A stretch of DNA of 64,000 nt from Microbispora sp. H13382 (GTDB lineage Bacteria > Actinomycetota > Actinomycetes > Streptosporangiales > Streptosporangiaceae), in contig NZ_JABBXA010000007.1 in NCBI RefSeq assembly GCF_014161445.1, positions 62,001-126,000 of the forward strand, read 5' to 3'. The notes beneath the pieces were generated by a model. The model saw only the letters and a list, made by a program, of their open reading frames with translations. It did no database searches and was not told where the DNA came from. Every line of letters begins with the position of its first letter. The first letter of the stretch is position 1. Positions 38,642 through 54,553 of the stretch are shown piece by piece. A program made the position numbers and the translations under genes.

Positions 38642-39262
38642 ATGGACGCCACCGCGTCGCCCCACACCCCCGCCACCGCGCACCCTCGGGCCGCGCGTAC
38701 GGACGACCCGGCGGGCGGGAGGCCCGCCGCCGCCTCGGTCGTCGCCGCGCCGCTCGTCGCCGCAGCGGCGTCGCTGACGCTCGGTGTGACGCAGCTCCTG
38801 CACACGCAGACGGTGCCGTTCGCCTCGGCGGGCGACTACGTCGCCGAGGGCGCGTACGCCCTCTACCTGGTCGCGGCGATCGGGGCCGTCCTCGCCCTGC
38901 GCCGCGTCCACCGCCCGGCGCGGGGCTGGGGGCGGACCGGCGACGCCGGTGCGCTGCTGTACGGCCTCGGCCACGCGGTCGTGGCGGTCCCGGTGACCGC
39001 CACCTTCGTCCTCGCCACGAACCCGCCGGACCCGCTCGGCGCGCTGTACGCGCCGGGGATCGTGCTGTGGCTGGCCGGCCTGGTCCCGCTCGCGGTCGCG
39101 GTCTTCCGCTGCGCGCTGGTTCCCCGCGCGGTCGCCGTGGTCCTCCCGGCGACGCTGCCGCTGGCGATGGCCCTGGGCGCGGCGGGGCCCCTGGTCGAGG
39201 CCCTGACCTGGGCCGTCCTGGCGTTCGCGATCGTCAGGGAAGCGCGGCGACGAGTTCGCTGA
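38642..39262 (+). CDS. Multi-pass membrane protein
   Basis: 206 residues: about 30 hydrophilic Ala/Pro/His residues, then five to six TM helices, ending in [15 protein letters not shown] lies 8 bases before the ATG. The 120 bases upstream hold an imperfect GC-rich inverted repeat. The last 29 bases overlap the 3' end of hemQ on the other strand. No family recognised; it follows a two-component system and may be its output. Confidence 0.75.
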
Positions 39263-39935
39263 CCGGCTTGCGGGTGCCCGTGTAGAAGGGGATCTCCACC
39301 CTGGTGTGCCGCCTCGCCTCGGCCCCGCGCAGGTGGCGCATCAGGTCGACGATGCGGTGCAACTCGTCGGCTTCGAAGGCGAGCATCCACTCGTAGTCGT
39401 TGAGCGCGAAGCACGCGACCGTGTTGGCCCGCACGTCGGGGTAGTCGCGGGCCATCTTCCCGTGCTCGGCGAGCATCGTGCGGCGCTCGGAGTCCTCCAG
39501 CAGGTACCACTCCAGCGACCGCACGAAGGGGTAGACGCAGACGAAGCCCCTGGGCTCCTCCTCGGCCAGGAAGGCCGGGACGTGGGACTTGTTGAACTCG
39601 GCCGGGCGGTGCAGGGCCATGGCCGACCAGACCGGCTCGCTCGCGCGGCCGAGCGTGGTGCGGCGGAAGCGGGTGTAGGTCTCCTGCAGGTCCTCGGGCG
39701 AGGGGGCGTGCCACCAGAACATGAAGTCGGCGTCGGCGCGGAACCCGGCCACGTCGTAGCAGCCGCGGGTCGTCACGTCCTTGCCCGCCGCCTGCGCGAG
39801 CAGTTCCTCGACCTCGTCGGCCACGCCGTCGCGGGCGGCGGGAAGCTGGTCGCGCAGCCGGAAGACCGACCACATGGTGTATCGAATGACCAGGTTGAGA
39901 TCGCGTGCCTTGGGCCGCGGGGCAGGCTCCGTCAT
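39234..39935 (-). CDS. hemQ: Coproheme decarboxylase HemQ
   Basis: 233 residues of the chlorite-dismutase-like fold. It decarboxylates coproheme to heme b with peroxide, the last step of the coproporphyrin-dependent pathway of Gram-positive bacteria. [27 protein letters not shown] is the HemQ heme-proximal region, and [12 protein letters not shown] carries the catalytic Tyr expected in the FVRSxEWYLL motif. It follows hemY after a strong hairpin. Confidence 0.95.
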
Positions 39936-39967
39936 GCCTCCATTCTGCCGGTACGACGCGGTGGTCC

Positions 39968-40006
39968 GGCCGCCGGGTGCCTTCCCGGGGGAGGCACCCG
40001 GCGGCC
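39968..40006 (-). terminator. Hairpin between hemY and hemQ
   Basis: GGCCGCCGGGTGCC (39968-39981) pairs perfectly with its complement at 39993-40006 over an 11-base loop. It falls 20 bases beyond the hemY stop and 33 bases before hemQ. It looks like a terminator, so it may lower hemQ expression relative to hemY, or act as an mRNA processing or stability element. Confidence 0.7.
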
Positions 40007-40025
40007 GCGGCGGCCGCGCGTCCGG

Positions 40026-41456
40026 TCAGGCGTCGGAGGCCGCCGCCGCCCGGCCGCCCCGCAGGTGCTCCACGACGAGCTTGGCGGCGGTGCGGGCGGT
40101 CGCGACGCAGGCCGGGATCCCGAGGCCCTCGTACGCCGCGCCGCAGACGGCGAGGCCGGGCTGCCCGGCGATCGCGGCGCGCACACGGGCGATCCGGTCG
40201 AGGTGGCCCACGTCGTACTGCGGGAGCCCGCCGCCCCAGCGGGTGACCCGGGTGTCCAGCGGCAGGCCCCGCACGCCCATGATCTCGGCCATCTCGTTCA
40301 TCGCCAGGGCGGTCAGCTCGGCGTCCTCGCGCTGGAGCACGAGCTCCTCGCCCAGGCGGCCGACCGAGCACCGCACGATCACGACGTTGCGGTCGGCCTC
40401 GGCCAGGTGCGGCCATTTGACGCTGCTGAACGTCGCGGCCTTGACCGGCCTGCCCTCGACCGGCGGCACGAGGTAGCCGCTGCCCTCCGGCGGCTCGGGG
40501 AAGGCCGTACGGGGATAGGCGAGGGTGATGATCGCCATGCTGGCGTACTCGATCCCGGCCAGTTCGGCCGCCGCCTTCGGCACCTCGCGCCGGAGCAGGC
40601 GGGAGGCGGGCCGCGCGGGGACCGCCAGGACGACCGCGTCGGCGTCGATCACCTCCTCGTCCCGGGTGGGACCGGTGACCAGCCGCCAGCCGTCCGGCGT
40701 CCGGATCAGGTCGCGTACGGTGACGCCGGTGCGGATCTGCGCGCCCGACTCCTTCGCCACGGCGGCGGGCAGCGACCCCAGGCCGCTCCTGAGCGTGGTG
40801 AACACCGGCCCGGCGTCCGCGGGCGCCTCGGCGGCGATGCTCCTGGCCGCCTGCAGCAGCGACCGCTCGGTGCGGGCGGCGGCGGCGATCCGCGGCATGG
40901 TCGCGTCCAGCGACAGCATCTCGGCCCGGCCCGCGTACACGCCGCCGAGCAGCGGCTCGACCAGCCGGTCGACGACCTCGCCGCCCATCCGGGCCCGGAT
41001 GTAGGCCGCCACGGAGACGTCGCCGGTCACGAGCGTGGGCGGCAGGAACTGGTCGAGGGGCACCCGGGCGAGCCCGGCCGGCGACAGGACGCCCGAGCGC
41101 GCGAGGGCGACCACGTCCGAGGGGACGCCCATCACCTGCTGCCGGGGCAGCGGGCGCAGCGATCCGCGCGACAGGACGGCGGCCCGCGTCGTGCCCGGGT
41201 CCACCAGGTCGTCGCCGAGGCCGGCCAGCCGGGCCAGTTCCTTGCCCTCGGGCCGCCGCGCCAGCATCGACTCGGCGCCCGCGTCGACCTCCACCCCCGC
41301 CACCTGCGATGCGTAGAGCTTGCCGCCGACCCTCGGCGCCGCCTCCAGCACTGTGATCCGCAGGCCGGCGTCGGCCCGGTTCAGGTGCAGCGCCGCGGCC
41401 AGACCCGCGATGCCCCCGCCGACGACGACCACATGACGACCCGCAATCCCGTCCAT
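40026..41456 (-). CDS. hemY: Coproporphyrinogen/protoporphyrinogen III oxidase
   Basis: 476-residue FAD oxidase (HemY/CgoX). GRHVVVVGGGIAGLAAALHLNR at the N-terminus binds FAD; MLARRPEGKELARLAGLGDDLVDP and the C-terminal GLAVCGAAYEGLGIPACVATARTAA are family blocks. With hemQ adjacent the substrate is most likely coproporphyrinogen III. ATG 41456 is the first codon before the dinucleotide fold. Confidence 0.94.
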   Translation of the reverse strand: MDGIAGRHVVVVGGGIAGLAAALHLNRADAGLRITVLEAAPRVGGKLYASQVAGVEVDAGAESMLARRPEGKELARLAGLGDDLVDPGTTRAAVLSRGSLRPLPRQQVMGVPSDVVALARSGVLSPAGLARVPLDQFLPPTLVTGDVSVAAYIRARMGGEVVDRLVEPLLGGVYAGRAEMLSLDATMPRIAAAARTERSLLQAARSIAAEAPADAGPVFTTLRSGLGSLPAAVAKESGAQIRTGVTVRDLIRTPDGWRLVTGPTRDEEVIDADAVVLAVPARPASRLLRREVPKAAAELAGIEYASMAIITLAYPRTAFPEPPEGSGYLVPPVEGRPVKAATFSSVKWPHLAEADRNVVIVRCSVGRLGEELVLQREDAELTALAMNEMAEIMGVRGLPLDTRVTRWGGGLPQYDVGHLDRIARVRAAIAGQPGLAVCGAAYEGLGIPACVATARTAAKLVVEHLRGGRAAAASDA

Positions 41457-41723: not shown

Positions 41724-42911
41724 GTGAAGCGAATGACGGCTCGCCCCGAGAACCCGCACCAGGCGCGGCTCCTGCGCCTCCTGCGTCAGGACGGCGCGCG
41801 CTCGCGCGCCGAACTCGGCGAGGTGGCCCGTCTGTCACCGTCGAAGCTCGCACTCGAGCTCGACCGGCTCAACAAGCTGAACCTCCTCGAAACCGGCGGC
41901 CTCGCGGCCTCGCGTGGCGGCCGGCGGTCGGGCATCGTGCGGATCGCCTCGCACCTGCGTTTCGTCGGCATCGACATCGGCGCCACGTCCATCGACGTGG
42001 GGGTGACGAACGGCGAACTGGAGGTGCTCGGCCACCTGTCGAAGCCGGCGGACGTGCGGGACGGCCCCGAGGCGGTGCTGGAGCAGGCCCTCGATCTCGT
42101 CGGCAAGCTGCGGACCGGCGAGACGAGCGAGATCCACGGTGTCGGCATCGGGGTGCCCGGTCCGGTGAGCTTCCTCGACAGGACGCCGGTCTCGCCGCCG
42201 ATCATGCCGGGCTGGGACCGCTTCCCGGTGCGGGAGACGCTGAGCCGGGAGTTCGGCTGCCCGGTGCTCGTGGACAACGACGTGAACATCATGGCGCTCG
42301 GCGAGCTGCACGCCGGGCTCGCCAGGGCCGTCGGCGACTTCCTGCTCGTGAAGATCGGCACCGGCATCGGCTGCGGCATCGTGGTCGACGGCGAGATCTA
42401 CCGCGGGGTGACGGGCAGCGCCGGCGACATCGGCCACATCCGGGTGTCGGAAGGCGGCCCCCTGTGCACGTGCGGCAACACCGGCTGTCTCGAGGCCTAC
42501 TTCGGCGGCGCGGCGCTGGCCCGCGACGCCCTGGCCGCGGCGGAGTCGGGCGAGTCCCCCTTCCTCGCGGAGCGGCTCACGCACGAGGGCACGCTGACGG
42601 CCGAGGACGTCGCCGCGGCCGCGGCCTCGGGCGACGCCGCCGCCGTACGGATGATCCGCGAGGGCGGCCGGCACGTGGGCCTCGTGCTCGCGTCCCTCGT
42701 GAGTTTCTTCAACCCCGGCCTGGTGATCATCGGAGGCGGGGTCGCCGGTCTGGGCCACGCGCTGCTCGCGGAGATCCGCAGCGTCGTCTACCAGCGCTCG
42801 CTGCCGCTGGCCACCGGCAACCTGCCCATCGTCTTGTCCGAGCTGGGCGACACGGCCGGGATCGTCGGCGCCACCCGCCTGATCAGCGACCACGTCTTCT
42901 CCGCCGAGTGA
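41724..42911 (+). CDS. ROK-family transcriptional regulator
   Basis: 395 residues. Winged HTH about 10-65 (HQARLLRLLRQDGARSRAELGEVARLSPSKLALELDRL), then a full ROK kinase-like domain: VGIDIGATSIDVGVTNG (phosphate loop), DNDVNIMALGE (catalytic Asp), TGIGCGIVVDG and the zinc motif CTCGNTGCLE. ROK repressors bind a sugar or sugar phosphate and leave DNA. Kinase residues look intact, so residual sugar-kinase activity is possible. Convergent with the ebo operon, separated by a bidirectional terminator. Candidate operators lie at its own promoter and at the 49.6-49.9 kb divergent region. GTG 41724 is used; ATG 41733 is possible. Confidence 0.92.
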   Translation: MKRMTARPENPHQARLLRLLRQDGARSRAELGEVARLSPSKLALELDRLNKLNLLETGGLAASRGGRRSGIVRIASHLRFVGIDIGATSIDVGVTNGELEVLGHLSKPADVRDGPEAVLEQALDLVGKLRTGETSEIHGVGIGVPGPVSFLDRTPVSPPIMPGWDRFPVRETLSREFGCPVLVDNDVNIMALGELHAGLARAVGDFLLVKIGTGIGCGIVVDGEIYRGVTGSAGDIGHIRVSEGGPLCTCGNTGCLEAYFGGAALARDALAAAESGESPFLAERLTHEGTLTAEDVAAAAASGDAAAVRMIREGGRHVGLVLASLVSFFNPGLVIIGGGVAGLGHALLAEIRSVVYQRSLPLATGNLPIVLSELGDTAGIVGATRLISDHVFSAE

Positions 42912-42998: not shown

Positions 42999-44324
42999 TC
43001 AGCCCTTGAGCAGCTGCGTGAGCAGGCCCTTCACCTCGGTCGCGGCGTACGCGTCCTTGTCGAAGGGGCCCAGCAGCACCGGTCCGTCCGCCGCCGCGTC
43101 GGGCAGGCGGCCGTGGCTGCCGCGCACCGGGGCCGGGTCGAGCGGCACCACCGACATCTTGTAGCGCATGCCCATCTTCTTGCGGGCCAGCGCCGTGCCC
43201 GCGCGCAGCTTCACCAGCGGGTCGTTCGGATCCATGAACAGCTCCGCCGGGTCGTAACCGGGCTTGCGGTGGATCTCCACGAGCTTCGCGAAGTCGGGCG
43301 CCCGGTCGTCGGACAGCCAGTAGTAGTACGTGAACCAGGCGTCCGGGTCCGCCACGGCGACCAGATCACCGGCCCGCTCGTGGTCGAGGCCGTACCTCGC
43401 CTTGCCCTCCTGGTCCAGGACCTCGTCCACGCCCTGCAGCTCAGCCACGATGTCCCGTACGCGGGGCAGGTCGGCGGTGTCGTTCACGTAGACGTGGGCG
43501 ACCTGGTGGTCGGCGACCGCGAAGGCCCGCGAGGCCCAGGGGTCGAGATACTCCATGCCGTCCTGGGTGTAGACCTCCAGCAGCCCGGCCCGGCGCAGCG
43601 CGCGGTTGACGTCGACCGGGCGGGAGGCGTTGGTGATGCCGTACTCCGACAGCACGACGACGGTGGCGTCCTCCCGCAGCAGCGGCGCGAGCGCGGCGTC
43701 GACCTCCCGGGCCGCCGCGATCGCCTGCGGCGCGTCGGGGCCGAAGCGCTGCAGGTCGTAGTCGAGGTGCGGGATGTAGACCATGAGCAGGTCGGGCCGC
43801 TCCTTCGCGAGGATCCGGCGGGCGGCCGCGATGATCCACTTGGACGAGGTGATGCTCGCCGTCGGCCCCCAGTAGGTGAACAGCGGGAACTCGCCCAGCC
43901 CGGCCACCAGGTCGTCGTGCAGCGACGGCGGCCTGGTGTAGCAGTCGGGCTCCTTGCGCCCGTCGGCGTAGTAGATCGGGCGCGGGGTGACGATGAAGTC
44001 GCTGGAGCCGCCCATGGCGTACCACCAGCACACGTTGGCCGTGCGGATCCCGGGCACCGCGTCCCACAGCTGCTCGCCCTGGATCAGCCGGTTGTGCTGC
44101 CGCCACAGGAAGACCTCACCGAGGTCCCTGAAGTACCAGCCGTTGCCGACGATGCCGTGGTCGCGCGGCATCGAGCCGGTCAGCAGGGTGGCCTGCACGG
44201 AACAGGTCACGGCGGGCAGCACGGGCTTCAGGGACGCGGCGGCCCCCACTTTCGCCACGTTCGGCATGTGCGCCAGCAGGCGCGGGGTCAGGCCGACGAC
44301 GTTCACGACGACGACGGGCGCCAT
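42999..44324 (-). CDS. eboF: Nucleotide pyrophosphatase/phosphodiesterase family protein (EboF-like)
   Basis: 441 residues of the alkaline phosphatase superfamily (type I phosphodiesterase/nucleotide pyrophosphatase). Nucleophile Thr in LPAVTCSVQATLLTG, GIVGNGWYFRD, metal ligands in YIPHLDYDLQRFG and VVVLSEYGI, and a C-terminal metal His in SHGRLPD. No signal peptide, so it acts in the cytoplasm. Such a protein is the last gene of ebo clusters. A plausible task is releasing phosphate or a nucleotide from the pathway intermediate. Its ATG overlaps the eboE stop by one base. The product is unknown. Confidence 0.87.
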   Translation of the reverse strand: MAPVVVVNVVGLTPRLLAHMPNVAKVGAAASLKPVLPAVTCSVQATLLTGSMPRDHGIVGNGWYFRDLGEVFLWRQHNRLIQGEQLWDAVPGIRTANVCWWYAMGGSSDFIVTPRPIYYADGRKEPDCYTRPPSLHDDLVAGLGEFPLFTYWGPTASITSSKWIIAAARRILAKERPDLLMVYIPHLDYDLQRFGPDAPQAIAAAREVDAALAPLLREDATVVVLSEYGITNASRPVDVNRALRRAGLLEVYTQDGMEYLDPWASRAFAVADHQVAHVYVNDTADLPRVRDIVAELQGVDEVLDQEGKARYGLDHERAGDLVAVADPDAWFTYYYWLSDDRAPDFAKLVEIHRKPGYDPAELFMDPNDPLVKLRAGTALARKKMGMRYKMSVVPLDPAPVRGSHGRLPDAAADGPVLLGPFDKDAYAATEVKGLLTQLLKG

Positions 44325-45445
44325 CAGATCTCCTTAAGTCCGAGGGCGGCGAGCCGCCGCCGGGTCCAGTCCAGCTCGGCCGCGACGCCCTCGGCGACGT
44401 CGACCGGGCCGGGCAGCACGCTCCAGGTGTAGGTCTCGACCTCGAGGTGCCGGGTGAGGGGGGCGGTGAGGCCCCCGTCCGGGGTCATGAGCCGGCCCAG
44501 CAGGTCCTCCAGGTACGGAGCCGTCGTGGTGAGCGGCGGCGGAGCCGCGGCGTGCAGGGGCATGTGGAAGTGCGTGCGCCACGGCAGGTCCACCGGGAGC
44601 CCCCCGGCCAGCGCCTCGGGCAGGTCGTCGGCGTACCCGGCCGTGCAGCGGGTCTGGTGGAGGTACCGCTCCTCCTCGTACGCCGCCAGGGCGGACTGGC
44701 CGCCCGGGGGCGCCTCGACCGCGGCCGACACCTGGAGCTTCACGATCGGCAGTCCCAGGGCGGCGGCGTCGGCGGGCTCCTCGAGACCGACGGCGAGGTG
44801 GCAGGCGTCCAGGCAGACACCGAGGTACTCGGGGTCGGCGCCGCCCAGCAGCGCGACGGCCTGCGGGGTGGTCTCCACGATGCAGCCCGGTTCCGGCTCG
44901 AAGCCGACGCGGATCGTCTTGCCGGTGCGCTCCGCCAGCGCCCGCAGGCCCCGGGTGAGCGCGCCCAGGTTGGCGTCGACCGCCGCGGCCTTGTCCGGCG
45001 TCCACTCCGTGCGCCAGGCGAGGGGCAGCGTCGAGATCGAGCCCTCGGTCACGTCGTCCGGCAGCAGCACGGCGAGGATCTCGGCCAGGTCGAGGGTGTA
45101 GGCGAGCCGCTCCGGCTCGGCCCAGTCGGGCCGGTACACCCGGAGCTTCACGACCTGGTCGTGGAAGCCCTGATAGGGGAAGCCGTTGAGGGTGACGACC
45201 TCCAGCCCCAGCTCGTCCAGCCGGGCGCGCAGCCGCGCCAGCTCGCCGGGGTCGGCCCGCAGCGCCCGCGCCGCGCGGGACGACAGCCACAGCCCGAGGC
45301 CGAGCACCGGGACGCCGGTCAGCGCCCGCACCCGGGCGGCGACCCCGGAGAGCTGCCCGTGAATCCCGTCGAGGTCCTCGGCGGGGTGGACGTTGGTGCA
45401 GTAGGCCAGGTGGACGACGGAGCCGGAGGGATGCAGCAGGCGCAT
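44324..45445 (-). CDS. eboE: EboE-type metabolite traffic protein, TIM barrel
   Basis: 373 residues from ATG 45445. VVHLAYCTNVHPAEDLDGIHGQLSGVAARV at the N-terminus is the EboE signature; the barrel follows AP-endonuclease-2 xylose-isomerase-like folds, with metal-site residues in VGFEPEPGCIVET, LGVCLDACHLAV and IVKLQVSAA. Late HFHMPLHAAAPPPLTTTAPYLEDLL and LEVETYTWSVLP blocks are also typical. In the cyanobacterial ebo cluster this family is needed for precursor movement in scytonemin synthesis (established for Nostoc). Two bases separate it from eboB. Confidence 0.9.
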   Translation of the reverse strand: MRLLHPSGSVVHLAYCTNVHPAEDLDGIHGQLSGVAARVRALTGVPVLGLGLWLSSRAARALRADPGELARLRARLDELGLEVVTLNGFPYQGFHDQVVKLRVYRPDWAEPERLAYTLDLAEILAVLLPDDVTEGSISTLPLAWRTEWTPDKAAAVDANLGALTRGLRALAERTGKTIRVGFEPEPGCIVETTPQAVALLGGADPEYLGVCLDACHLAVGLEEPADAAALGLPIVKLQVSAAVEAPPGGQSALAAYEEERYLHQTRCTAGYADDLPEALAGGLPVDLPWRTHFHMPLHAAAPPPLTTTAPYLEDLLGRLMTPDGGLTAPLTRHLEVETYTWSVLPGPVDVAEGVAAELDWTRRRLAALGLKEI

Positions 45446-45447
45446 TG

Positions 45448-46290
45448 TCAGCGCGTCCCGCGCAGGATCGTGTTGCCCTCGTAGTCGCCGCCGGACTCGA
45501 CGTCGTCCAGGTGCAGGCGCCCGCTCTGGCCGTAGAACTCCACCGGGTTCTGCCACAGCACCCGGTCGACGTCCTCGTCGGTGAACCCGGCGGCCAGCAT
45601 GGCGTCGCCGACCTGGCGGGTCTTCAGCACGTCGCTGCGCCCCCAGTCCGCGGCGGAGTTCACGATCATCCGCTCGGTGCCGTACTCCTTGAGGATCGCC
45701 ACCATCCGGTCCGGGTCCATCTTGGTGTCCGGGTAGATCGAGAAGCCCGCCCAGCAGCCGGCCTCCAGGACCATGGCGACGGTCAGCTCGTTGAGGTGGT
45801 CGACGAGGACCTTGCCCGGTTCCATGCTCTTGACCACGTCCAGCGTGCGGCGGGTCCCGGCCGCCTTGTCGCGGTGCGGCGTGTGCACGAGCACCGGCAG
45901 GCCGTGCTCCTCGGCCAGCGCGAGCTGGGCCTCGAAGACGCGGTCCTCCTCCGGCGTCACCGAGTCGTAGCCCACCTCGCCGACCGCCACGACGGAGTCC
46001 TTCAGCAGGTAGCGGGGCAGCTCGTCCAGCACGGCGACGCACCGCGGGTCGTTGGCCTCCTTCGGGTTGAGGGCGAGCGTGCAGTGGTGGCGGATGCCGT
46101 ACTGCGCGGCGCGGTAGGGCTCCCACCCCAGCAGCGCGTCGAAGTAGTCGAGGAAGCTGCCGACGTTCGTGCGCGGCTGGCCGAGCCAGAAGGCGGGCTC
46201 CACGACGGCACGGACCCCGGCGGCGTACATGCGCTCGTAGTCGTCCGTCGTGCGGGACGTCATGTGGATGTGGGGGTCGAAGATCCTCAT
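45448..46290 (-). CDS. eboB: TatD-family metal-dependent hydrolase (EboB)
   Basis: 280 residues. The amidohydrolase/TatD metal site is seen as DPHIHM (residues 5-10), VGEVGYD, VLVHTPHRDKAAG, DHLNE and the late NSAADWGRSD. EboB proteins form their own branch of TatD; here the Arg/Lys-rich HTPHRDK loop suggests a phosphorylated or acidic substrate (inference). Six bases downstream of eboA. No signal peptide. Confidence 0.9.
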   Translation of the reverse strand: MRIFDPHIHMTSRTTDDYERMYAAGVRAVVEPAFWLGQPRTNVGSFLDYFDALLGWEPYRAAQYGIRHHCTLALNPKEANDPRCVAVLDELPRYLLKDSVVAVGEVGYDSVTPEEDRVFEAQLALAEEHGLPVLVHTPHRDKAAGTRRTLDVVKSMEPGKVLVDHLNELTVAMVLEAGCWAGFSIYPDTKMDPDRMVAILKEYGTERMIVNSAADWGRSDVLKTRQVGDAMLAAGFTDEDVDRVLWQNPVEFYGQSGRLHLDDVESGGDYEGNTILRGTR

Positions 46291-46296
46291 CGGGAA

Positions 46297-46800
46297 TCAG
46301 AGCCTCTCGAAAACGTCGGGGGGAACGGGCCGTCCGGCCGCACGGCGCTCGGCGGCGAAGTCGGCGAGCATGCGCCGCAGTTCGTCGTCGAAGCGCCGGT
46401 CGAGGCCCTCGACCGACGCGAGCGGAACGGACATGAAGACGCACTTGAGCACGCCCTGACGGAAGGCGTGGTCGTCCAGCCAGGCCGAGCCGTACGGGCC
46501 GAGCGCGGCGGCGACCAGCCGGGTGTCGTTGGTGCGCAGGGCGTCGTGGATGAGCGGGAGAGCGGCCGGACCGAGGTCGAGCCGCGCGAGCGCCTCCAGG
46601 ATCTCCAGCCGCTCCCCCGCGTCGCCCTGCCAGTAGAGCTTCGTGATGGCCGCCACCGGGTCCGGCAGGGTCTTTGTGAGCGCTCTCAACAGCTCGGCAC
46701 GGGCGTCTGGGCCGCCCTCCCGCGCGGCCCGCGGGAACAGCGCGTAGACGGTCTCCGGGTCGCGCTCAACGTCGGCTACGGCCTGCGCCAGCCAGGTCAT
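46297..46800 (-). CDS. eboA: EboA-domain protein
   Basis: 167 residues, all-helical, rich in Leu/Ala/Arg. TWLAQAVADVERDPETVYALFPRAAREGG and the block DTRLVAAALGPYGSAWLDDHAFRQGVLKCVFMSVPLASVEGLDRR are recognisable EboA features. Biochemical role unknown; the repeat-like helices suggest a protein adaptor for the cluster. ATG 46800 has GAGGAGGG upstream and lies 35 bases inside the end of the isomerase gene. Confidence 0.9.
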   Translation of the reverse strand: MTWLAQAVADVERDPETVYALFPRAAREGGPDARAELLRALTKTLPDPVAAITKLYWQGDAGERLEILEALARLDLGPAALPLIHDALRTNDTRLVAAALGPYGSAWLDDHAFRQGVLKCVFMSVPLASVEGLDRRFDDELRRMLADFAAERRAAGRPVPPDVFERL

Positions 46801-47617
46801 GTGCCCTCCTCAGGAATTCGATCGACCTTCGCGCCACGTCGGGCGCCGCGTGGCTGTGCCTGGCCAGCTCGACGGCGACCAGCCCGCCGAAGCCGTCGAG
46901 CGCGGCGAGCGCGGGCGGGAAGTCGATCTCGCCCTCGCCGAACTCGAGATGCTCGTGGACGCCTCGCCGCATGTCCTCGATCTGCACGTGCACGAGGTGC
47001 GGCAGCGCCCGTTCGACGCATTCGGGCACGTCGTACGGCTCCAGGCAGCGGCAGTGCCCGATGTCGAGGGTGAGGCCGAATCTCGCATGGCCGCCGAGCA
47101 GGCCGCGCAGCCGTTCGTATCCGGCCAGGTCCGCCACGAGCATCCCCGGCTCGGGCTCGAATCCGAGCGTGACGCCCACCTTGTCGGCCTCGCCGAGCAG
47201 GCGCTCGCACTGCCGGACGAGCCGGTCCCACGCCTCGGCCTCGGGCACCTGCGGCGGCCGGATGCCGCTCCAGAGGTGCACCACGGGCGCGCCGAGGTCG
47301 GCCGCGATCCGCATCGCCTCGCACAGGAAGCGCACGCGCGCCTCCGCGTCATCGTGCAGCAGCGTCGGGTAGTGCTTGCGCCGGGGGTCGAGCGCGTACC
47401 TGCCGCCCGTCTCGACGGCGAGGGACAGGCCGAGCCGCCGCGCCAGCGCCGCGATCCGCCCGACCTCCGCTGCGGAGGCGCCGGGCATGAGGTGCCCGTG
47501 GTCGAGCGTGACCGCCGCGCCGGTGTAGCCGAGGTCGGCGAGCACCTCCAGCGTCTGGTCGAGCGGATGGTCGCGGAAGCCGTTGGTGCAGTAAGCCCAG
47601 TTCATAGGCACGCTCAC
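46766..47617 (-). CDS. Sugar phosphate isomerase/epimerase-type TIM barrel
   Basis: 283 residues, AP_endonuc_2 fold. Metal-binding residues are visible in LGFEPEPGMLV (Glu), GLTLDIGHCRC (Asp/His), HVQIEDMRRGVHEHLEFGEGEIDF (Gln/Asp, His, Glu). MNWAYCTNGFRDHPLDQTLEVL resembles the EboE beginning (AYCTN), so the two may share ancestry or substrate. It should isomerise or epimerise a keto sugar or inositol-like compound. GTG 47617 overlaps the eboC stop; ATG 47605 is an alternative. Confidence 0.88.
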   Translation of the reverse strand: MSVPMNWAYCTNGFRDHPLDQTLEVLADLGYTGAAVTLDHGHLMPGASAAEVGRIAALARRLGLSLAVETGGRYALDPRRKHYPTLLHDDAEARVRFLCEAMRIAADLGAPVVHLWSGIRPPQVPEAEAWDRLVRQCERLLGEADKVGVTLGFEPEPGMLVADLAGYERLRGLLGGHARFGLTLDIGHCRCLEPYDVPECVERALPHLVHVQIEDMRRGVHEHLEFGEGEIDFPPALAALDGFGGLVAVELARHSHAAPDVARRSIEFLRRAHDLAGAGRSRR

Positions 47618-48459
47618 GACGTGGCCACCTTCGCCGACAGCCAGCGGCCGGCCGGCAGCGCGGCCAGCAGCGCCGCCGCCTGGGCGAACCTGCCCCGCCC
47701 GGCCACCGCGGCCGCCTGCAGCGGGATCAGGCCGAGGATGCTCATCCGCACCGCCTGCCGCACCTGCTCGGGGTCGGGGTCGGCGCGCAGCGCCAGCTGG
47801 GCCCGGCCGGCGGTGGCGAGGTAGCCGGCGATCATCACGGCGGCGCCCAGCCGTCCCGCCGTCTCACCGTGGCGGCAGGCGACCGCCGCCAGCGCCGCGG
47901 ACGCGCCGGTCGCGGTCAGCGCCTGGACGACGGTCGCGGGGGTCGCGCCGTCCACCTCGGCCCGGCCGAGCAGGGTGATGCCGTAGGTGTGGGCGCCGAC
48001 GGCCAGCGCCATCGGGGCCGCCGCCCGGGTCCGCGGTCCCGCCCCGAGCAGCACGTCGAGCGCGCGGCAGGCCGCCATCGCGGCCGGGCCCGCCACGGTG
48101 TGCTTGAGACGCAGGTCGTAGGCCCACGCGGCGCCGGCGAGCAGGCCCGCGAGCGCGAGCCCGCGCCGTCCGCCGGCGACCGCGGCGGTGGCCACCCCGG
48201 CGCCGGTCAGGGCGACGGCGAGGCCGAGCGCCCCTTCCGGGCTGATCCTGCCGGAGGGGATGGGCCGTTCCGGGCGCTCCTTCGCGTCGAGCTTCCGGTC
48301 CGACCAGTCGTTGAGCGCCATGCCGGCCCAGTAGAGCAGCACCGACGCGGCGGCGAGGCCGGGCCGTGCCGACCGTCCGGCCACCGCCGCGCCCGCGAGC
48401 GTGTCACCGGGGACGGACAGCGCGGCGGGCGCGCGGACCAGCTCCAGCCAGGCCTTCAC
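47614..48459 (-). CDS. eboC: EboC, UbiA-family prenyltransferase
   Basis: 281 residues, about nine TM helices. First Asp motif NDWSDRKLDAKERPERPIPSG (residues about 50-70) binds the prenyl diphosphate through Mg2+; second YDLRLKHT (about 114-121) is the shorter EboC version of DxxxD. UbiA enzymes transfer a polyprenyl chain to a soluble acceptor at the membrane, so this enzyme probably anchors the cluster product to lipid. Overlaps the synthase gene (ATGA). Confidence 0.9.
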   Translation of the reverse strand: MKAWLELVRAPAALSVPGDTLAGAAVAGRSARPGLAAASVLLYWAGMALNDWSDRKLDAKERPERPIPSGRISPEGALGLAVALTGAGVATAAVAGGRRGLALAGLLAGAAWAYDLRLKHTVAGPAAMAACRALDVLLGAGPRTRAAAPMALAVGAHTYGITLLGRAEVDGATPATVVQALTATGASAALAAVACRHGETAGRLGAAVMIAGYLATAGRAQLALRADPDPEQVRQAVRMSILGLIPLQAAAVAGRGRFAQAAALLAALPAGRWLSAKVATS

Positions 48460-49598
48460 AGCCGTTCACCCGTGATCGATTGTGCGAAGTCGACCAGCCG
48501 GGCGTACTGGGTGGGCAGGTCGTGTCCCGCGCCGCCCAGCGGGTCCTTGAAGAAGTAGCCGAGCTCGGGGAGCACGCCGCTGTGCCCGGCCTCGTGGGCC
48601 CGCGCGACGAGGCGGGCGAGGTCGAGGACGAGCGGGGCGGCCAGCGTCGAGTCGCAGCCCTGCCAGGTGAACTGCATGGTCATGCGGACGCCGAGGAACC
48701 CCTCGAACGTGATGTGGTCCCAGGCGGTCTTCCACTCGCCGAGGTCGGCGACGTAGTCGATGTGCGTCAGGCCCTCGACCTCCTCGCCCACGATCGCGGG
48801 GACGGCCCGCGCCTTGCTCGCCGACTTGCTCTCCCGGGCCGCGGGATCGGCCAGCGTGGCGCCGTCGCCGCCACCGAGCAGGTTGAGCCCCGACCACGAG
48901 CGCACGCGCAGCGCGCGGCCGGCGAACATCGGCGCGAGCGCGCTCTTGACCAGCGTCTCCCCGGTCTTACCGTCGCGTCCCGCGTACGGCACGCCGTTGC
49001 GCCGCGCCAGTTCGTCGAGGGCGGGAGGCGTCGGGCCGGCGGACGGGGTGAACGCGACGTAACCGCACCCGGCGGTGAAGGCCGCGTAGGCGTACAGGGA
49101 GCTGGCGGGCAGCGGGTCCTGCCCCGACGCGAGCGCCTCCTCCAGGTCGGAGAGCCGCGCGTGCGACACCTCGGCGGGAGGCTCGGTCGACGACACGTCC
49201 ACCACGACGACGTGGGACAGGCCGTGCCGCTCCCGGAAGTCCGTGATGTCGGCGGCCAGCCGCCGCGCGGCATCGGCCTGGCTCTCCTCGCCGGGCACGT
49301 AGCCATGCCTGCTCTCGGCCTCCACGGCGTCGAGGTCCGCGGCGAGCAGGGTCGTCAGGACGGGAGGGAACACTCCCGCCTGGGCGAGCATCTCGGCCCT
49401 CTTGCGCAGTGGGGTCCCGACCACGTCGTGACCGCCGAACACCAGGTCGCCCAGAGGAGCGAAGCCCCCGGGGAAGCCGGCGGCCTCGATGACGCACCCG
49501 GTGGGCGCAGCCGCTCCCGCACGGACCGCCGCCGCCCCGACTACCGCCGTGGTCGCGACGGACCCCCGGGCGCCGACCAGCCAGACACCGATGGGCAC
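48456..49598 (-). CDS. Inositol-3-phosphate synthase-like protein
   Basis: 380 residues from GTG 49598 (GGGAGAG upstream). N-terminal NAD site PIGVWLVGARGSVATTAVVG; central SSLYAYAAFTAGCGYVAFTPSAGPTP and GRDGKTGETLVKSALAPMF; C-terminal FEGFLGVRMTMQFTWQGCDSTLAAPLVLDLARL, all of the archaeal/actinobacterial Ino1 group. It would cyclise glucose-6-phosphate to inositol phosphate; as the operon head it may give the polar headgroup that eboC prenylates (inference). A longer frame reaches 49841 but runs through the promoter. Confidence 0.92.
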   Translation of the reverse strand: MPIGVWLVGARGSVATTAVVGAAAVRAGAAAPTGCVIEAAGFPGGFAPLGDLVFGGHDVVGTPLRKRAEMLAQAGVFPPVLTTLLAADLDAVEAESRHGYVPGEESQADAARRLAADITDFRERHGLSHVVVVDVSSTEPPAEVSHARLSDLEEALASGQDPLPASSLYAYAAFTAGCGYVAFTPSAGPTPPALDELARRNGVPYAGRDGKTGETLVKSALAPMFAGRALRVRSWSGLNLLGGGDGATLADPAARESKSASKARAVPAIVGEEVEGLTHIDYVADLGEWKTAWDHITFEGFLGVRMTMQFTWQGCDSTLAAPLVLDLARLVARAHEAGHSGVLPELGYFFKDPLGGAGHDLPTQYARLVDFAQSITGERL

Positions 49599-49648: not shown

Positions 49649-49678
49649 ATACTAAGAGGCATCTTTCGTCGCTGACAA
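49649..49678 (-). promoter_or_regulatory. Predicted promoter of the ebo operon
   Basis: On the minus strand, TTGTCA (49678-49673), an 18-base spacer, and TAGTAT (49654-49649) fit a housekeeping promoter, with a leader of about 40 bases to the GTG. The -35 lies inside element C, so a bound repressor would occlude it. Confidence 0.6.
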
Positions 49679-49973: not shown

Positions 49974-51122
49974 ATGAGTGCGTACGAAGAAGAGATGGAG
50001 TCGGCGGGCAACCTCGGACGCCGGCTGGGGCTCAGCCGCCGCCAGCTGCTCGCGGCCACGACCGGCATGGCGGCGGCCGCCGCCGTGGCGGCCGCCGGTC
50101 CGATGAAGTCGGTCGCGCGTGCGGCGACCACGGGCAACGGCCCGAACGGCATTCTCATCCCGCCGCCGCGGCGCGGCATCATCCTGTACACGGTCCGCGA
50201 CGCCATCTCCCGTGACCCGCTGTCCAGCAGCCTCCCCTCCGGCTTCCGCGCCGTGTTCGAGGAGCTCGCCCGCATCGGCTACGCGCAGGTGGAGTTCGCC
50301 GGCTACAGCCAGCACCGCAACGCCGAGGGCGGCGCCAGCCTGGAGAGCATCGAGGGCGCCAAGCTGCTGCGCGGCTGGCTGGACGACAACGGCCTGGTCG
50401 CCCAGGGCAACCACGGCTTCATCCCCGGCTCCTGGCCGCTGAGCCAGGCCGACCTGGACCGCTTCAAGCTCCACCTGGAGATCGCCAACATCCTCGGGAT
50501 GGCCCACGTCGGCACCGGCAGCGACCCGACCGGCAGCGCCTACAAGGCCGACTGGGACGTCGCCGCGGAGAAGTGGAACGCGCTCGGCGAGATCGCCACC
50601 GCCGCGGGTCTCAAGCTGTACACGCACAACCACGACGTGGCCTACAGCTTCCTGCTCGACAGCGGCCCGCTGGACGACCGGGGCCGCCCCACCCGCTCCT
50701 CCGGCATCCGCCGCCTGGAGTACTTCCTCCAGATCACCGACCCCAAGCACGTCTGGCTCGAGATGGACATCTTCTGGGCCCACGTCGCGCAGTACAAGCA
50801 CAAGACCTTCACCGCCCCGGACGGGTCCACCCAGACCCAGGTCTTCAACCCGCTCGGCGTCGTGCAGGCCCAGACCAAGCGGTTCCCGCTGTTCCACGCC
50901 AAGGACGGCAAGATCAACACCGGCACGGCCAACGGCTACGACATGGTTCCGTTCGGCACCGGCGACATCGACTACGCGGCGTTCCTCCGCGGCGTCGGCG
51001 CCAAGGGTTACCACAACCCGATGTACGAGCAGGACACCGCCCCCGGCGGCACCGCGAACCCGGCGCAGTCCCTGCAGTACGCGGACCTGAGCTACCAGAA
51101 CATGTCCGCCCTGCGCGGCTGA
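49974..51122 (+). CDS. Tat-exported sugar isomerase/epimerase-like TIM barrel
   Basis: 382 residues. Tat signal LSRRQLLAATTGMAAAAAVAAAG with cleavage near ARA (about residue 50). The barrel is AP_endonuc_2-like: LARIGYAQVEFAGY (Glu), GLKLYTHNHDVAY (His/Asp), VWLEMDIFWAHVA (Glu/Asp) and FPLFHAKDG (His) outline the metal site. Folding before export fits a metalloenzyme. Divergent from the ebo operon, with the sugar dehydrogenase gene 113 bases downstream; probably acts on an extracellular sugar or on the exported cluster product. Confidence 0.9.
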   Translation: MSAYEEEMESAGNLGRRLGLSRRQLLAATTGMAAAAAVAAAGPMKSVARAATTGNGPNGILIPPPRRGIILYTVRDAISRDPLSSSLPSGFRAVFEELARIGYAQVEFAGYSQHRNAEGGASLESIEGAKLLRGWLDDNGLVAQGNHGFIPGSWPLSQADLDRFKLHLEIANILGMAHVGTGSDPTGSAYKADWDVAAEKWNALGEIATAAGLKLYTHNHDVAYSFLLDSGPLDDRGRPTRSSGIRRLEYFLQITDPKHVWLEMDIFWAHVAQYKHKTFTAPDGSTQTQVFNPLGVVQAQTKRFPLFHAKDGKINTGTANGYDMVPFGTGDIDYAAFLRGVGAKGYHNPMYEQDTAPGGTANPAQSLQYADLSYQNMSALRG

Positions 51123-51235
51123 CGACTTCGACGAATGACGAATATGGCGGACCGCCACGCGTTCGACCCGTTCCACCGGCACGCGGCGGCCCGCCTTTCC
51201 CTGCCACCCCCCTGAAAAGAAGAGGCGCAGCAGAC

Positions 51236-54200
51236 TTGAAGCGTACTCGCATTCTGGGCGGCGCTCTCGCCGCCGCGTTGACGCTCCCGATGGCGGCGGC
51301 GCTCACCGCCGCACCGGCGCAGGCGCACGAAGACGCCCTGCACTGGGAGAACTACGAGAAGGTCACGCTCACCAAGGACGTCGGCGAGCCGATCGACATG
51401 GCGATCCTGCCGGACAGCCGGGTGCTGCACACCGCCCGCAACGGCGACATCCGGATGACCGACCCCGCCACCGGCGTGACGAAGATCATCAACAAGATCG
51501 GCGTCTACAACAACTCCGAAGACGGTCTGCAGACGATCGGCGTCGACCCCGACTTCGCGACCAACAAGTGGGTCTACGTCTACTACGCGCCCAAGAAGAT
51601 GACCGCGCCGTACCCGGAGGAGACCCCGACCGGGTCGGCGCCCAACTCCCTGCCCGCAGGCGCGGACGAGTCGTACTGGAACCAGTGGAAGGGCTACAAC
51701 CAGCTCTCCCGGTTCAAGTGGGACGGTGAGAAGCTCGACCTGTCCACCGAGCAGGTCATCATCAAGGTCGAGACCAACCGCGGGCAGTGCTGCCACGTCG
51801 CCGGCGACTTCGACTGGGACGACGACGGCAACCTCTACCTGTCCACCGGGGACAACACCCCGGCCAGCACGCCCGGCGCCAACGGCATGGCCCCCAACAA
51901 CGACGCCCCCGGCATGAACCCGGGCTTCGACGCCCGCCGCGGCGCCGGCAACTCCAACGACCTGCGCGGCAAGATCCTGCGGATCAAGGTGGGCGAGGAC
52001 GGCTCCTACACCGTTCCCGACGGCAACCTGTTCCCGAAGGGCACGGCCAAGACCCGGCCGGAGATCTTCGCCATGGGCGTTCGGAACCCGTTCCGCATCG
52101 ACGTCGACCCGGGGACCGGGACGGTGTCGTGGGGCGACTACGGACCGGACGCCGGCGCCGCCGACCCCAACCGCGGCCCGATGGGGTACGTCGAGTGGAA
52201 CGTCACCCCGATCAGCAAGCCGCTCAACGCCGGCTGGCCGTACTGCCACGGCGACAACTTCAACTACAACAACTGGGACTACGCGACCTCGAAGCCGCGT
52301 GAGTGGTTCGACTGCGGCGCCGGCCCGACCAACACCTCCCGCTGGAACACCGGCCTGGACAAGCTCCCGCCCGCGGTTCCCGCCGACCTGTACTACGGCG
52401 ACCGCGCGGGCGACCAGCCGGCGGAGTGGGCCGGGCTGACCGAGTTCGACCCGGTGCAGAACGGCCAGGGCCCGATGGGCGGTCCCGTCTACCACTACGA
52501 CGCCGACAACCCCTCGGCCACCAAGTTCCCCGCGTACTGGGACAAGAAGTTCTTCTTCGCGGAGTTCTCCCAGGACTACCTGGCGGCGTTCACGGTGACG
52601 GGCTCCGACGGGCCGGTGACCAAGATCGAGCACTTCCTGCCGAACGCCGAGCTGACCAAGATGGCGATGCCCATCACGGACAACCCGATCGACATCGAGT
52701 TCGGCCCCGACGGCGCGCTGTACGTGCTCGACTACGGCGACGGCTTCTTCCGCGCCAACCCCGACTCGGGTCTGTACCGCATCGACTACTCGCCCGGCAA
52801 CAAGGCCCCGCAGGCGAAGATCACCGTCGACAAGACGTCGGGCAGCAACGCGCCGCTCACCGTCCAGTTCAGCGGCGCCAAGTCCACCGACGCCGAGGCC
52901 GGCGACCTGACCTACGAGTGGGACTTCGACGGCAACGGCAGCTTCGACGCCACGGGAGTGACGGCGAGCCACACCTACGACAAGCTCGGGCAGTACACCG
53001 CCCGGCTCCGCGTCACCGACGCGGGCGGCAGGTTCGGTCTCACCACCATCGAGATCACCGTCGGTAACACCGCACCCGAGGTCAGCATCGAGACTCCCGG
53101 CGACGGCGGCTTCATCGACTGGGGCAACGCGGTTCCGCTGAAGGTCAAGGTGACCGACGCGGAGGACGGCGACAACCCGACCTGCAGCCGGGTGCAGTGG
53201 ACCTTCGGCCTCGGCCACGACACGCACGCCCACCCGATCACCACCGGCACGGGCTGCACCGTCACCTGGGCGACCCCCGCGGACGCCCCCGAGCACGGCG
53301 TGACCGAGAACATCTTCGGCGTCGTCGTGGTGAGCTACCGCGACAACGGCGCCAGCGGCATTCCCGGCGCCTCCAGCGACGCGAGCCTGATCCTCAACCC
53401 CAAGCTCATGCAGGCCGAGCACGGGGACGACAGCAAGGGCGTCACCAAGACCCAGGACGAGACCGCCTCCGGCCTCAACAAGGTCACCTCGTTCGACGCC
53501 GGCGACTACATCGGCTACGACCCGGTGAACCTCGCCGGGATCACCTCGGTGAAGACCGTGGCCAGCGGCGCGGGCACGCTGTCGCTGCGCTGGAACTCGC
53601 CGGCCGCGACCCCGTTCGCGACCGTCGCGATCCCGGCCGGCTCCGGCTGGCAGACGGTGACCACCGCGCTGAACAACGCCCCCACGGGCAGCGGCAAGCT
53701 GTACGTCACCTCGACCGGCGGCGTGGAGGTGGACGCGTTCACCTTCGTGGGCGACGGCGTCGCCGACAAGACCCCGCCGACCGTGACCGCCACCCTCAAC
53801 CCGGCCCAGCCGACCGGTGAGAACGGCTGGTACAAGGGCAACGTGTCGATGACGGTCACCGCGACCGACAACGGCACGGTGGCGAGCCGGCAGTACTCGG
53901 TCAACGGCGGCACCACCTGGCTGAACGCCAACAACGCGGTGACGCTGAGCACCGAGGGCACCACCGAGGTCCGCTACCGGGCCACCGACAGCGGCGGCAA
54001 CGTCTCCCAGATCGGCACCATCACGGTGAAGATCGACAAGGCCGCGCCCGCGCTGACCGTGAGCGGTGTCGAGTCCGGCGACCACGGCAGCTCGACCTCG
54101 ATCACTCCCGTGTTCTCCGCCACGGACGCCACGTCCGGGGTGGCGAGCGTGACCGCCGCGATCGGCGACCTGCAGGTCACCTCGGGCGAGCCGCTCCCGC

Positions 54201-54553
54201 TGTGGAAGCTGCCGCTCGGCGAGAACGAGCTGGTCGTGACCGCCAAGGACAAGGCCGGCCACGTCACGGAGAAGAAGTCGACCTTCACGGTCACGACCTC
54301 CTTCGACGACCTGGACGCCCTGCTGAAGGCCTTCAAGACCGCCGACACGGTGACGGGTGACACGGGCAACGTCCTGAGCACCCAGCTCGACCAGGCGGTC
54401 AAGGAAGCCGGCAAGGGCAAGAAGGACGACGCGATCAAGGCCCTGGAGCGGTTCGTCGGCTTCGCCGGCGACGCCAAGCGGGTGACCGACAAGGCCGTCG
54501 GCGACGCGCTCGTCCGCGACGCGCAGGCCCTGATCGAGCAGCTGCGCGGCTAG
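51236..54553 (+). CDS. Secreted sugar dehydrogenase with PKD, CBM, Ig-like and FIMAH domains
   Basis: 1105 residues from TTG 51236. Signal peptide to AQA (about 32); soluble glucose/sorbosone dehydrogenase propeller about 35-520 (DMAILPDSRVLHTARNG, NLYLSTGDNT, GVRNPFRIDVDPGTGTVSWGD); PKD about 522-615; a segment with MQAEHGDD and FDAGDYIGYDPV like CBM6 about 720-840; an Ig/OmpL47-like part (RQYSVNGGTTWLN); and a C-terminal helical FIMAH-like domain (about 1020-1105). It would oxidise sugars outside the cell while bound to polysaccharide. PQQ use is expected from the family, not shown. AGAGG lies upstream of the TTG. Confidence 0.92.
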   Translation: MKRTRILGGALAAALTLPMAAALTAAPAQAHEDALHWENYEKVTLTKDVGEPIDMAILPDSRVLHTARNGDIRMTDPATGVTKIINKIGVYNNSEDGLQTIGVDPDFATNKWVYVYYAPKKMTAPYPEETPTGSAPNSLPAGADESYWNQWKGYNQLSRFKWDGEKLDLSTEQVIIKVETNRGQCCHVAGDFDWDDDGNLYLSTGDNTPASTPGANGMAPNNDAPGMNPGFDARRGAGNSNDLRGKILRIKVGEDGSYTVPDGNLFPKGTAKTRPEIFAMGVRNPFRIDVDPGTGTVSWGDYGPDAGAADPNRGPMGYVEWNVTPISKPLNAGWPYCHGDNFNYNNWDYATSKPREWFDCGAGPTNTSRWNTGLDKLPPAVPADLYYGDRAGDQPAEWAGLTEFDPVQNGQGPMGGPVYHYDADNPSATKFPAYWDKKFFFAEFSQDYLAAFTVTGSDGPVTKIEHFLPNAELTKMAMPITDNPIDIEFGPDGALYVLDYGDGFFRANPDSGLYRIDYSPGNKAPQAKITVDKTSGSNAPLTVQFSGAKSTDAEAGDLTYEWDFDGNGSFDATGVTASHTYDKLGQYTARLRVTDAGGRFGLTTIEITVGNTAPEVSIETPGDGGFIDWGNAVPLKVKVTDAEDGDNPTCSRVQWTFGLGHDTHAHPITTGTGCTVTWATPADAPEHGVTENIFGVVVVSYRDNGASGIPGASSDASLILNPKLMQAEHGDDSKGVTKTQDETASGLNKVTSFDAGDYIGYDPVNLAGITSVKTVASGAGTLSLRWNSPAATPFATVAIPAGSGWQTVTTALNNAPTGSGKLYVTSTGGVEVDAFTFVGDGVADKTPPTVTATLNPAQPTGENGWYKGNVSMTVTATDNGTVASRQYSVNGGTTWLNANNAVTLSTEGTTEVRYRATDSGGNVSQIGTITVKIDKAAPALTVSGVESGDHGSSTSITPVFSATDATSGVASVTAAIGDLQVTSGEPLPLWKLPLGENELVVTAKDKAGHVTEKKSTFTVTTSFDDLDALLKAFKTADTVTGDTGNVLSTQLDQAVKEAGKGKKDDAIKALERFVGFAGDAKRVTDKAVGDALVRDAQALIEQLRG

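Follow-up and report, generated by a model that had tools for sequence, protein, structure and literature searches.

The papers of 2016 and 2018 on the ebo clusters left the product of these genes unknown (PMC5133447, PMC6282210), and a later answer was not found in the open-access literature. An isoprenoid-cyclitol product has been proposed (PMC5133447), as has a cyclitol lipid carrier, and the role of the Nostoc cluster was seen in moving a precursor across the membrane (PMC6282210). Actinobacterial clusters, those of Saccharomonospora, have also been shown (PMC9235831). Here we describe an ebo operon in a 64-kb stretch of DNA from Microbispora sp. H13382 (the window), in which a gene for an Ino1-type myo-inositol-1-phosphate synthase occupies the place of eboD and is accompanied by a gene for an extra TIM-barrel protein. 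Comparison with other loci makes a non-orthologous swap of the cyclitol source, Ino1 and the TIM barrel for EboD, a probable explanation. No description of this Ino1 form was found in the open-access literature on ebo, SCO3242 and inositol synthase, subscription papers lying outside that search, and the word "inositol" is absent from the available texts of PMC5133447, PMC6282210 and PMC9235831; the genes of the Ino1 form are annotated one by one in public Streptomyces plasmid records.

The operon consists of seven intact minus-strand open reading frames packed within positions 42999-49598, unknown residues being taken as Ala in the reading-frame scans. In order of transcription they encode the Ino1-type synthase (48456..49598, 380 amino acids, GTG start), an EboC-like UbiA-type prenyltransferase (47614..48459, 281 amino acids), the extra TIM-barrel sugar isomerase/epimerase-like protein that is the partner of Ino1 in the variant (46766..47617, 283 amino acids), EboA (46297..46800, 167 amino acids), the TatD/amidohydrolase-type EboB (45448..46290, 280 amino acids), the xylose-isomerase-like TIM barrel EboE (44324..45445, 373 amino acids), and EboF of the alkaline-phosphatase superfamily (42999..44324, 441 amino acids). 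An earlier note, made from the letters of this DNA, had described seven overlapping or nearly touching genes, and this was borne out: the frames are intact, and the junctions range from -35 to +6 nucleotides (Ino1/EboC -4, EboC/TIM -4, TIM/EboA -35, EboA/EboB +6, EboB/EboE +2, EboE/EboF -1). A promoter-like site on the minus strand (49649..49678, 9 of 12 consensus matches) lies about 50 nucleotides ahead of the Ino1 GTG; one such consensus match was found against a mean of 0.1 in shuffled sequence, and we infer that the operon may be read as a single transcript from one promoter.

The Ino1 protein matched both families of the enzyme, PF07994 with 160.9 bits (cut-off 25) and PF01658 with 112 bits (cut-off 27), and its best solved relative is the myo-inositol-1-phosphate synthase (MIPS) of A. 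fulgidus, 1u1i (E 1.9e-63). When aligned with that enzyme, it has K, K and N at the positions mutated in the crystals 3qvw, 3qvx and 3qw2. Residues K258, K262, K290, K351 and N239 are invariant in all 84 ebo Ino1 rows, K258 and K290 being those which we take to be catalytic; the conservation rows exclude the haloarchaeal loci, and the 84 Ino1 rows, like the 105 rows used for EboF below, include the window. The operon Ino1 scored 39.1 bits with the mycothiol Ino1 model TIGR03450, whose cut-off is 638, and is not a member of that family. Since the genome holds a separate mycothiol-type Ino1 (692.8 bits with the same model), the idea that the operon gene is the housekeeping copy was rejected.

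The earlier note had found eboD missing from the window, and the absence extends further: no eboD-type gene was found in the operon, the window or the genome in a PF01761 search, which gave one match. This match is aroB (TIGR01357 356 bits, cut-off 305), located in an aroC-aroK-aroB-aroQ cluster whose aroK is an aroK-like gene, so an eboD elsewhere in the genome was likewise rejected. Among the 19 ebo-bearing actinobacterial genomes, some have extra cyclase matches, which lie within 10 kb of ebo only in genome G381, and one genome that is 82 % complete (G318) gave no PF01761 cyclase match. Because EboD, a defining part of the classical operon, was searched for and is absent, we file the locus as a variant.

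Of 396 Actinomycetota genomes searched, 19 have an EboE match, 18 of them over the cut-off. The 20 regions compared contain 19 ebo clusters, and in 16 of these Ino1 heads the same seven-gene order. The exceptions are an additional ebo copy (L025; the other copy in that genome does have Ino1), a locus with broken EboE and EboC matches and no Ino1 match (L043), and a locus with EboD in place of Ino1 (L028). The gene-order comparison with other actinobacteria that the earlier note had proposed gave all seven genes in the same order in 57 of 80 named loci, above what chance would produce, many of the other 23 being cut by contig ends. The operon is thus neither damaged nor odd and represents the usual actinobacterial arrangement, a point which that note had missed. 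Strong relatives of the window Ino1 (at least 310 bits) occur in 17 of the 396 genomes, each starting 4.1-5.2 kb from EboE, and after them the score drops from 310 to 213 bits, the weaker ones being among the matches listed. As all 17 lie beside EboE and the mycothiol Ino1 is a separate gene, this class of Ino1 goes with ebo in these genomes.

For the comparison of the two gene sets, 117 loci were considered, 25 cut loci were set aside and 92 uncut loci were counted. Dropped before counting were L038 (a lone EboE relative), L141 (Ino1 without ebo genes), L136 (a repeat of L132), and L001-L023, L044 and L045 (short fragments that come mostly from the same places). Ino1 and the TIM barrel are found together in 76 uncut loci and EboD without the TIM barrel in nine, while no locus carries both sets; one further locus has Ino1 without the TIM barrel (L056, in which the EboC and EboF matches are also missing). 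The extra TIM barrel is absent from all nine EboD-type loci, and EboD sets were found in Pseudomonadota, Deinococcota, Bacteroidota and one actinobacterium. Gemmatirosa carries the Ino1 and TIM set in a different gene order, and three haloarchaea carry it with relatives of EboB, EboC and EboF and with two TIM-like proteins. The haloarchaeal plasmid loci (L137-L140) encode TatD, UbiA, two TIM barrels and EboF, with Ino1 in three of the four and no annotated EboA or EboE. In an Ino1 tree, the node uniting the haloarchaeal rows with Gemmatirosa reaches only 94/92; the bootstrap had not settled and the branch to the mycothiol outgroup is very long, and for this reason no direction of transfer is claimed.

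Several observations weigh against the swap and the pathway proposed for it below. Six of the 92 uncut loci lack both Ino1 and EboD, four of them with the TIM barrel only (L025, L059, L074, L140) and two without it (L043, L083). Since the loci are related and most of those with a name come from Streptomyces, the counts overstate their independence. No clear EboE or EboA was found in the haloarchaeal sets, and in Haladaptatus no Ino1 lies near the haloarchaeal set, so that there is no clean rule. An Ino1-family enzyme that forms a five-membered cyclitol phosphate exists (6k96, E 2.2e-14 as compared with 1.9e-63 for 1u1i), and the exact product of the operon Ino1 is therefore not settled. The product of MIPS keeps its phosphate and has no ketone, unlike the products of known sugar phosphate cyclases; Ino1 and EboD-type products could thus not be identical without further steps. 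Finally, aromatic quinolines can be farnesylated in vitro by a homologue of EboC (PMC9235831), which leaves the natural acceptor open.

The loci without either cyclitol enzyme, together with the presence of aroB in the genome, could also suggest that Ino1 is a passenger that raises the inositol pool, the operon being cyclitol-free or drawing its ring from the shikimate pathway via AroB. Ino1 is, however, the first gene and overlaps eboC by 4 nucleotides, its strong relatives all stand beside EboE, and the housekeeping enzyme is encoded separately; we consider a passenger role very improbable. Replacement of one cyclitol-forming enzyme by an unrelated one in the same position of the operon, if correct, provides independent support for a cyclitol core; of the published idea, only the cyclitol part gains new support in this way.

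The remaining proteins were assigned with different degrees of detail. For the gene called eboC in the earlier note, the encoded prenyltransferase belongs to the SCO3242 family (NF045897 "SCO3242 family prenyltransferase", 340.8 bits, cut-off 260) and can be described as EboC-like, but it missed the cut-off of the EboC model itself (138.5 of 250). Its Asp motifs are retained in all 48 rows of full length; many other rows for EboC were too short for use. The calls of an Ino1-like synthase and of a TIM-barrel isomerase were both confirmed as to family, the latter with PF01261 at 119.5 bits and with E154, D185, H188 and E250 present in 95 of 95 rows. EboE was upheld by NF035939 (376.9 bits, cut-off 250) and EboA by the domain model NF035938 (153.3 bits, cut-off 50), while the full-length EboA family model NF035937 was missed (65.5 of 320). 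Neither of the two findings that the earlier note had named as refuting its reading, assignment of these two genes to other families or an eboD-type gene belonging to the operon, was obtained. The predicted EboA model is all-helical, with a mean pLDDT of 97.8, and no match in the PDB was obtained at E 0.001. Its placement in a known fold family was set aside, the best E-value being 0.23, and only the description "helical repeat, HEAT/ARM-like" is supportable; an all-helical model without a PDB match agrees with the published TPR-like prediction and the idea of a scaffold (PMC6282210). EboB matched PF01026 (TatD_DNase, 56 bits) and has the HxH, E, H, H and D metal-motif positions in 109 of 109 rows. 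Neither EboB nor EboF matched an NCBIfam Ebo model in the profile search; these two calls hold through Pfam, the order of the genes, and similarity to their counterparts in clusters where eboE and EboA are annotated. What the sequences show directly are the protein families, the swap pattern and the conservation of catalytic residues in Ino1, EboB and the TIM barrel. The same genome also contains, on contig C14, a lone 319-amino-acid EboE relative beside a ClpC-like gene recognised by eye (L038:16681-17640), and no other ebo gene was matched in that stretch.

A scheme for the variant can be proposed, in which we infer each reaction and the reaction order. The ring of the classical operon would be formed by EboD, a sugar phosphate cyclase for which sedoheptulose 7-phosphate has been posited as the substrate. 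In the variant, Ino1 would instead convert glucose 6-phosphate to myo-inositol 1-phosphate, which is the likely entry point of the pathway, and the extra TIM barrel would remodel the ring by isomerisation, epimerisation or dehydration for the shared EboC, EboA, EboB, EboE and EboF. The membrane protein EboC would add a prenyl chain, and the resulting isoprenoid-cyclitol lipid may act at or outside the membrane as a carrier or anchor, with EboA as a helical scaffold and the remaining Ebo proteins processing or holding the product at the membrane. The full scheme, with cyclitol formation by an unrelated enzyme, remodelling by the TIM barrel, prenylation and a carrier or anchor lipid as the outcome, appears to us evenly balanced between right and wrong, and the specific assignment of the product as a prenylated cyclitol lipid is tentative, slightly short of such a balance. 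What the swap would add is a concrete first substrate, glucose 6-phosphate, for conversion to myo-inositol 1-phosphate.

EboF differs from the enzymes that it resembles in a way that bears on its function. It matched PF01663 (type I phosphodiesterase) with 198.5 bits, and its predicted model (mean pLDDT 81.2) resembles phosphonoacetate hydrolase, 3szy (Foldseek E 2.1e-19). T40 aligns with the nucleophilic threonine mutated in 3t02 and is kept in 105 of 105 rows. At the D-x3-H and D-H positions of PhnA, EboF has D188-x3-Q192 and E227-Y228, again in every row, the 105 including five EboD-type loci from three phyla and Gemmatirosa. The residues replaced (His; Asp-His) are presumably metal ligands in PhnA. 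Because of these substitutions, a standard two-metal mechanism is doubtful for EboF. These residue assignments rest on alignments, the model having pLDDT below 50 at residues 335-368 and 385-395; no claim is made for the first metal-binding Asp of PhnA, which the aligned part does not reach. EboF was treated as a putative hydrolase in PMC5133447, in whose available text the terms "active site", "nucleophile" and "residues" are absent.

The operon is flanked by genes that lie outside it, on the plus strand. Two of them are divergent, one encoding a TIM-barrel protein with an N-terminal twin-arginine-like signal seen by eye (49974..51122, PF01261 69.7 bits) and the other an apparently secreted GSDH-PKD-CBM6 protein (51170..54553; PF07995 103.7, PKD_4 54.3 and CBM_6 52.6 bits). 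On the other side, a convergent gene encodes a ROK-family regulator or kinase-like protein (41724..42911, PF00480 206.8 bits), beyond which hemQ and a protoporphyrinogen-oxidase-type gene (39234-41456) are kept in three Microbispora loci and are probably unrelated to ebo. The closest named loci are from Microbispora, with EboE identities of 94, 92 and 89 %, and they share the HemY, HemQ and ROK neighbours with the window.

Relatives of the divergent TIM-barrel protein adjoin ebo in 55 of 109 loci and in 39 of 59 long-flank loci, many of these from Streptomyces. With a limit of 10 kb from EboE, which was picked after the pattern had been seen and applied with rounded genome sizes and some short contigs, GSDH genes were found in 11 of 19 genomes against 0.37 expected (5 of 10 families, P about 7e-6) and ThuA genes in 8 of 19 against 0.23 expected (3 of 10 families, P about 8e-4). 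GSDH lies near ebo in 42 of the 59 named long-flank loci, representing 6 of 11 genera. Streptomyces pseudovenezuelae (L071) has a GSDH-PKD-CBM6 gene and a ThuA+3-keto-disaccharide-hydrolase gene on one side of the cluster and the TIM-barrel gene on the other. Related neighbours occur at Natronococcus (GSDH), Halocatena (ThuA) and Haladaptatus (Gfo/Idh and 3-keto-disaccharide hydrolase), and the Ketogulonicigenium cluster is likewise flanked by related sugar-oxidation-type genes. In the latter (L142:12545-14591), two Gfo/Idh/MocA genes adjoin EboD on the same strand and may possibly provide a cyclitol oxidation step. The Ino1-less ebo copies L025, L059 and L074 come from genomes of the Streptomyces type. 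Gfo/Idh/MocA genes adjoin L025 and L059, ThuA adjoins L059, and P450-like frames, recognised by eye, adjoin L025 and L074. In two of four annotated Streptomyces plasmid regions, a ScyD/ScyE-family gene (L126:3170-4372 and L127:3156-4355; 243.2 bits) directly precedes Ino1, an arrangement reminiscent of the scy-ebo pairing in cyanobacteria, and in the same two regions a gene for a multicopper oxidase comes after the operon; among the 59 named long-flank loci, a ScyE match was obtained in only one. The Nostoc ScyE has been assigned to the beta-propeller clan and predicted to be periplasmic (PMC4870267).

These neighbours could indicate sugar oxidation outside the cell, with the operon lipid as a cofactor or carrier for the GSDH, ThuA and TIM-barrel proteins, as for ScyE and the scytonemin monomer in cyanobacteria. 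The enrichment near EboE, the haloarchaeal examples and the ScyD/ScyE-family genes with a predicted periplasmic relative would fit such a function. However, none of the tested neighbours is present in 5 of the 11 long-flank genera, for which reason the neighbours were rejected as proof of function, and 8 of the 19 genomes have no GSDH within the post hoc limit of 10 kb, some on short contigs. Proximity is not function, and the neighbour statistics cover an actinobacterial set dominated by the Ino1 type rather than EboD-type loci; this explanation therefore seems unlikely. Plain catabolism of a sugar or inositol would use the same neighbours differently, the isomerases, the TatD-like hydrolase and the phosphodiesterase degrading a sugar conjugate under ROK control, and at several further loci a ROK match does adjoin ebo. 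Cyclitol synthases and membrane prenyltransferases, though, belong to biosynthesis, and Nostoc ebo mutants fail to export the scytonemin monomer (PMC6282210), which makes catabolism extremely improbable.

Another explanation is that the operon makes a finished, strain-variable secondary metabolite, an inositol-derived meroterpenoid with Ino1 providing the core and the ebo enzymes and neighbours decorating it, rather than a carrier lipid. We take SCO3237-SCO3243 to be the S. coelicolor copy of the operon, from the labels of SCO3242 and SCO3243 and from the family name. These two labels, a transferase and a myo-inositol phosphate synthase, are listed with the CDA antibiotic cluster (PMC3610822). 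In S. camelliae, genes for an aromatic prenyltransferase, a methyltransferase and a multicopper oxidase come just after the operon, the P450-like frames beside L025 and L074 would suit such a pathway, and deterrence of nematodes has been ascribed to the Pseudomonas edb cluster (PMC6282210). The presence of the core set in actinobacteria, Gemmatirosa and haloarchaea, and with EboD in further phyla, fits a common compound better, and Nostoc ebo mutants accumulate one scytonemin monomer and not pathway steps (PMC6282210). A finished secondary metabolite is, on this evidence, unlikely, and the swap of the cyclitol source in a shared lipid pathway is the reading we prefer.

The sugar-oxidation neighbours and the altered active site of EboF offer two further leads. 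A broader proposal would combine them: both ebo forms would make a prenyl lipid derived from a cyclitol, secreted oxidoreductases of the beta-propeller type (GSDH in actinobacteria and haloarchaea, ScyE in cyanobacteria) would use it as their cofactor or carrier in the membrane, and EboF would be a reprogrammed phosphotransferase or binding protein, not a classical two-metal hydrolase. We regard this combination as clearly unlikely; if true, it would represent a new kind of lipid cofactor common to archaea, bacteria and algal plastids.

Among known systems, the operon Ino1 is similar to the A. fulgidus MIPS (1u1i) over its whole length and conserves its catalytic positions, and differs in its genomic tie to ebo in actinobacteria; with the mycothiol Ino1 (TIGR03450) it shares the same Pfam families, although its score falls far below that cut-off. 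EboF shares its fold and nucleophilic threonine with the PhnA/ENPP phosphodiesterases and differs in having D-x3-Q and E-Y at the D-x3-H and D-H positions of PhnA. Actinobacterial EboA proteins are reported as fusions to a xylose-isomerase-like part (PMC5133447); the same two domains, TIM and EboA, are adjacent in the window, where they are encoded by separate genes that overlap by 35 nucleotides. The classical eboABCDEF operon is known from eustigmatophyte plastids, Bacteroidota, Cyanobacteria and others (PMC5133447, PMC6282210), the cyanobacterial and Pseudomonas clusters being taken here from the papers. Profiles show EboA and EboE to be shared with the window, family and context do so for EboB, EboF and the EboC-like prenyltransferase, and the genes are tightly clustered in both; the window differs in a prenyltransferase that belongs to the SCO3242 family and is not over the EboC cut-off, and in having Ino1 and a second TIM barrel instead of eboD.

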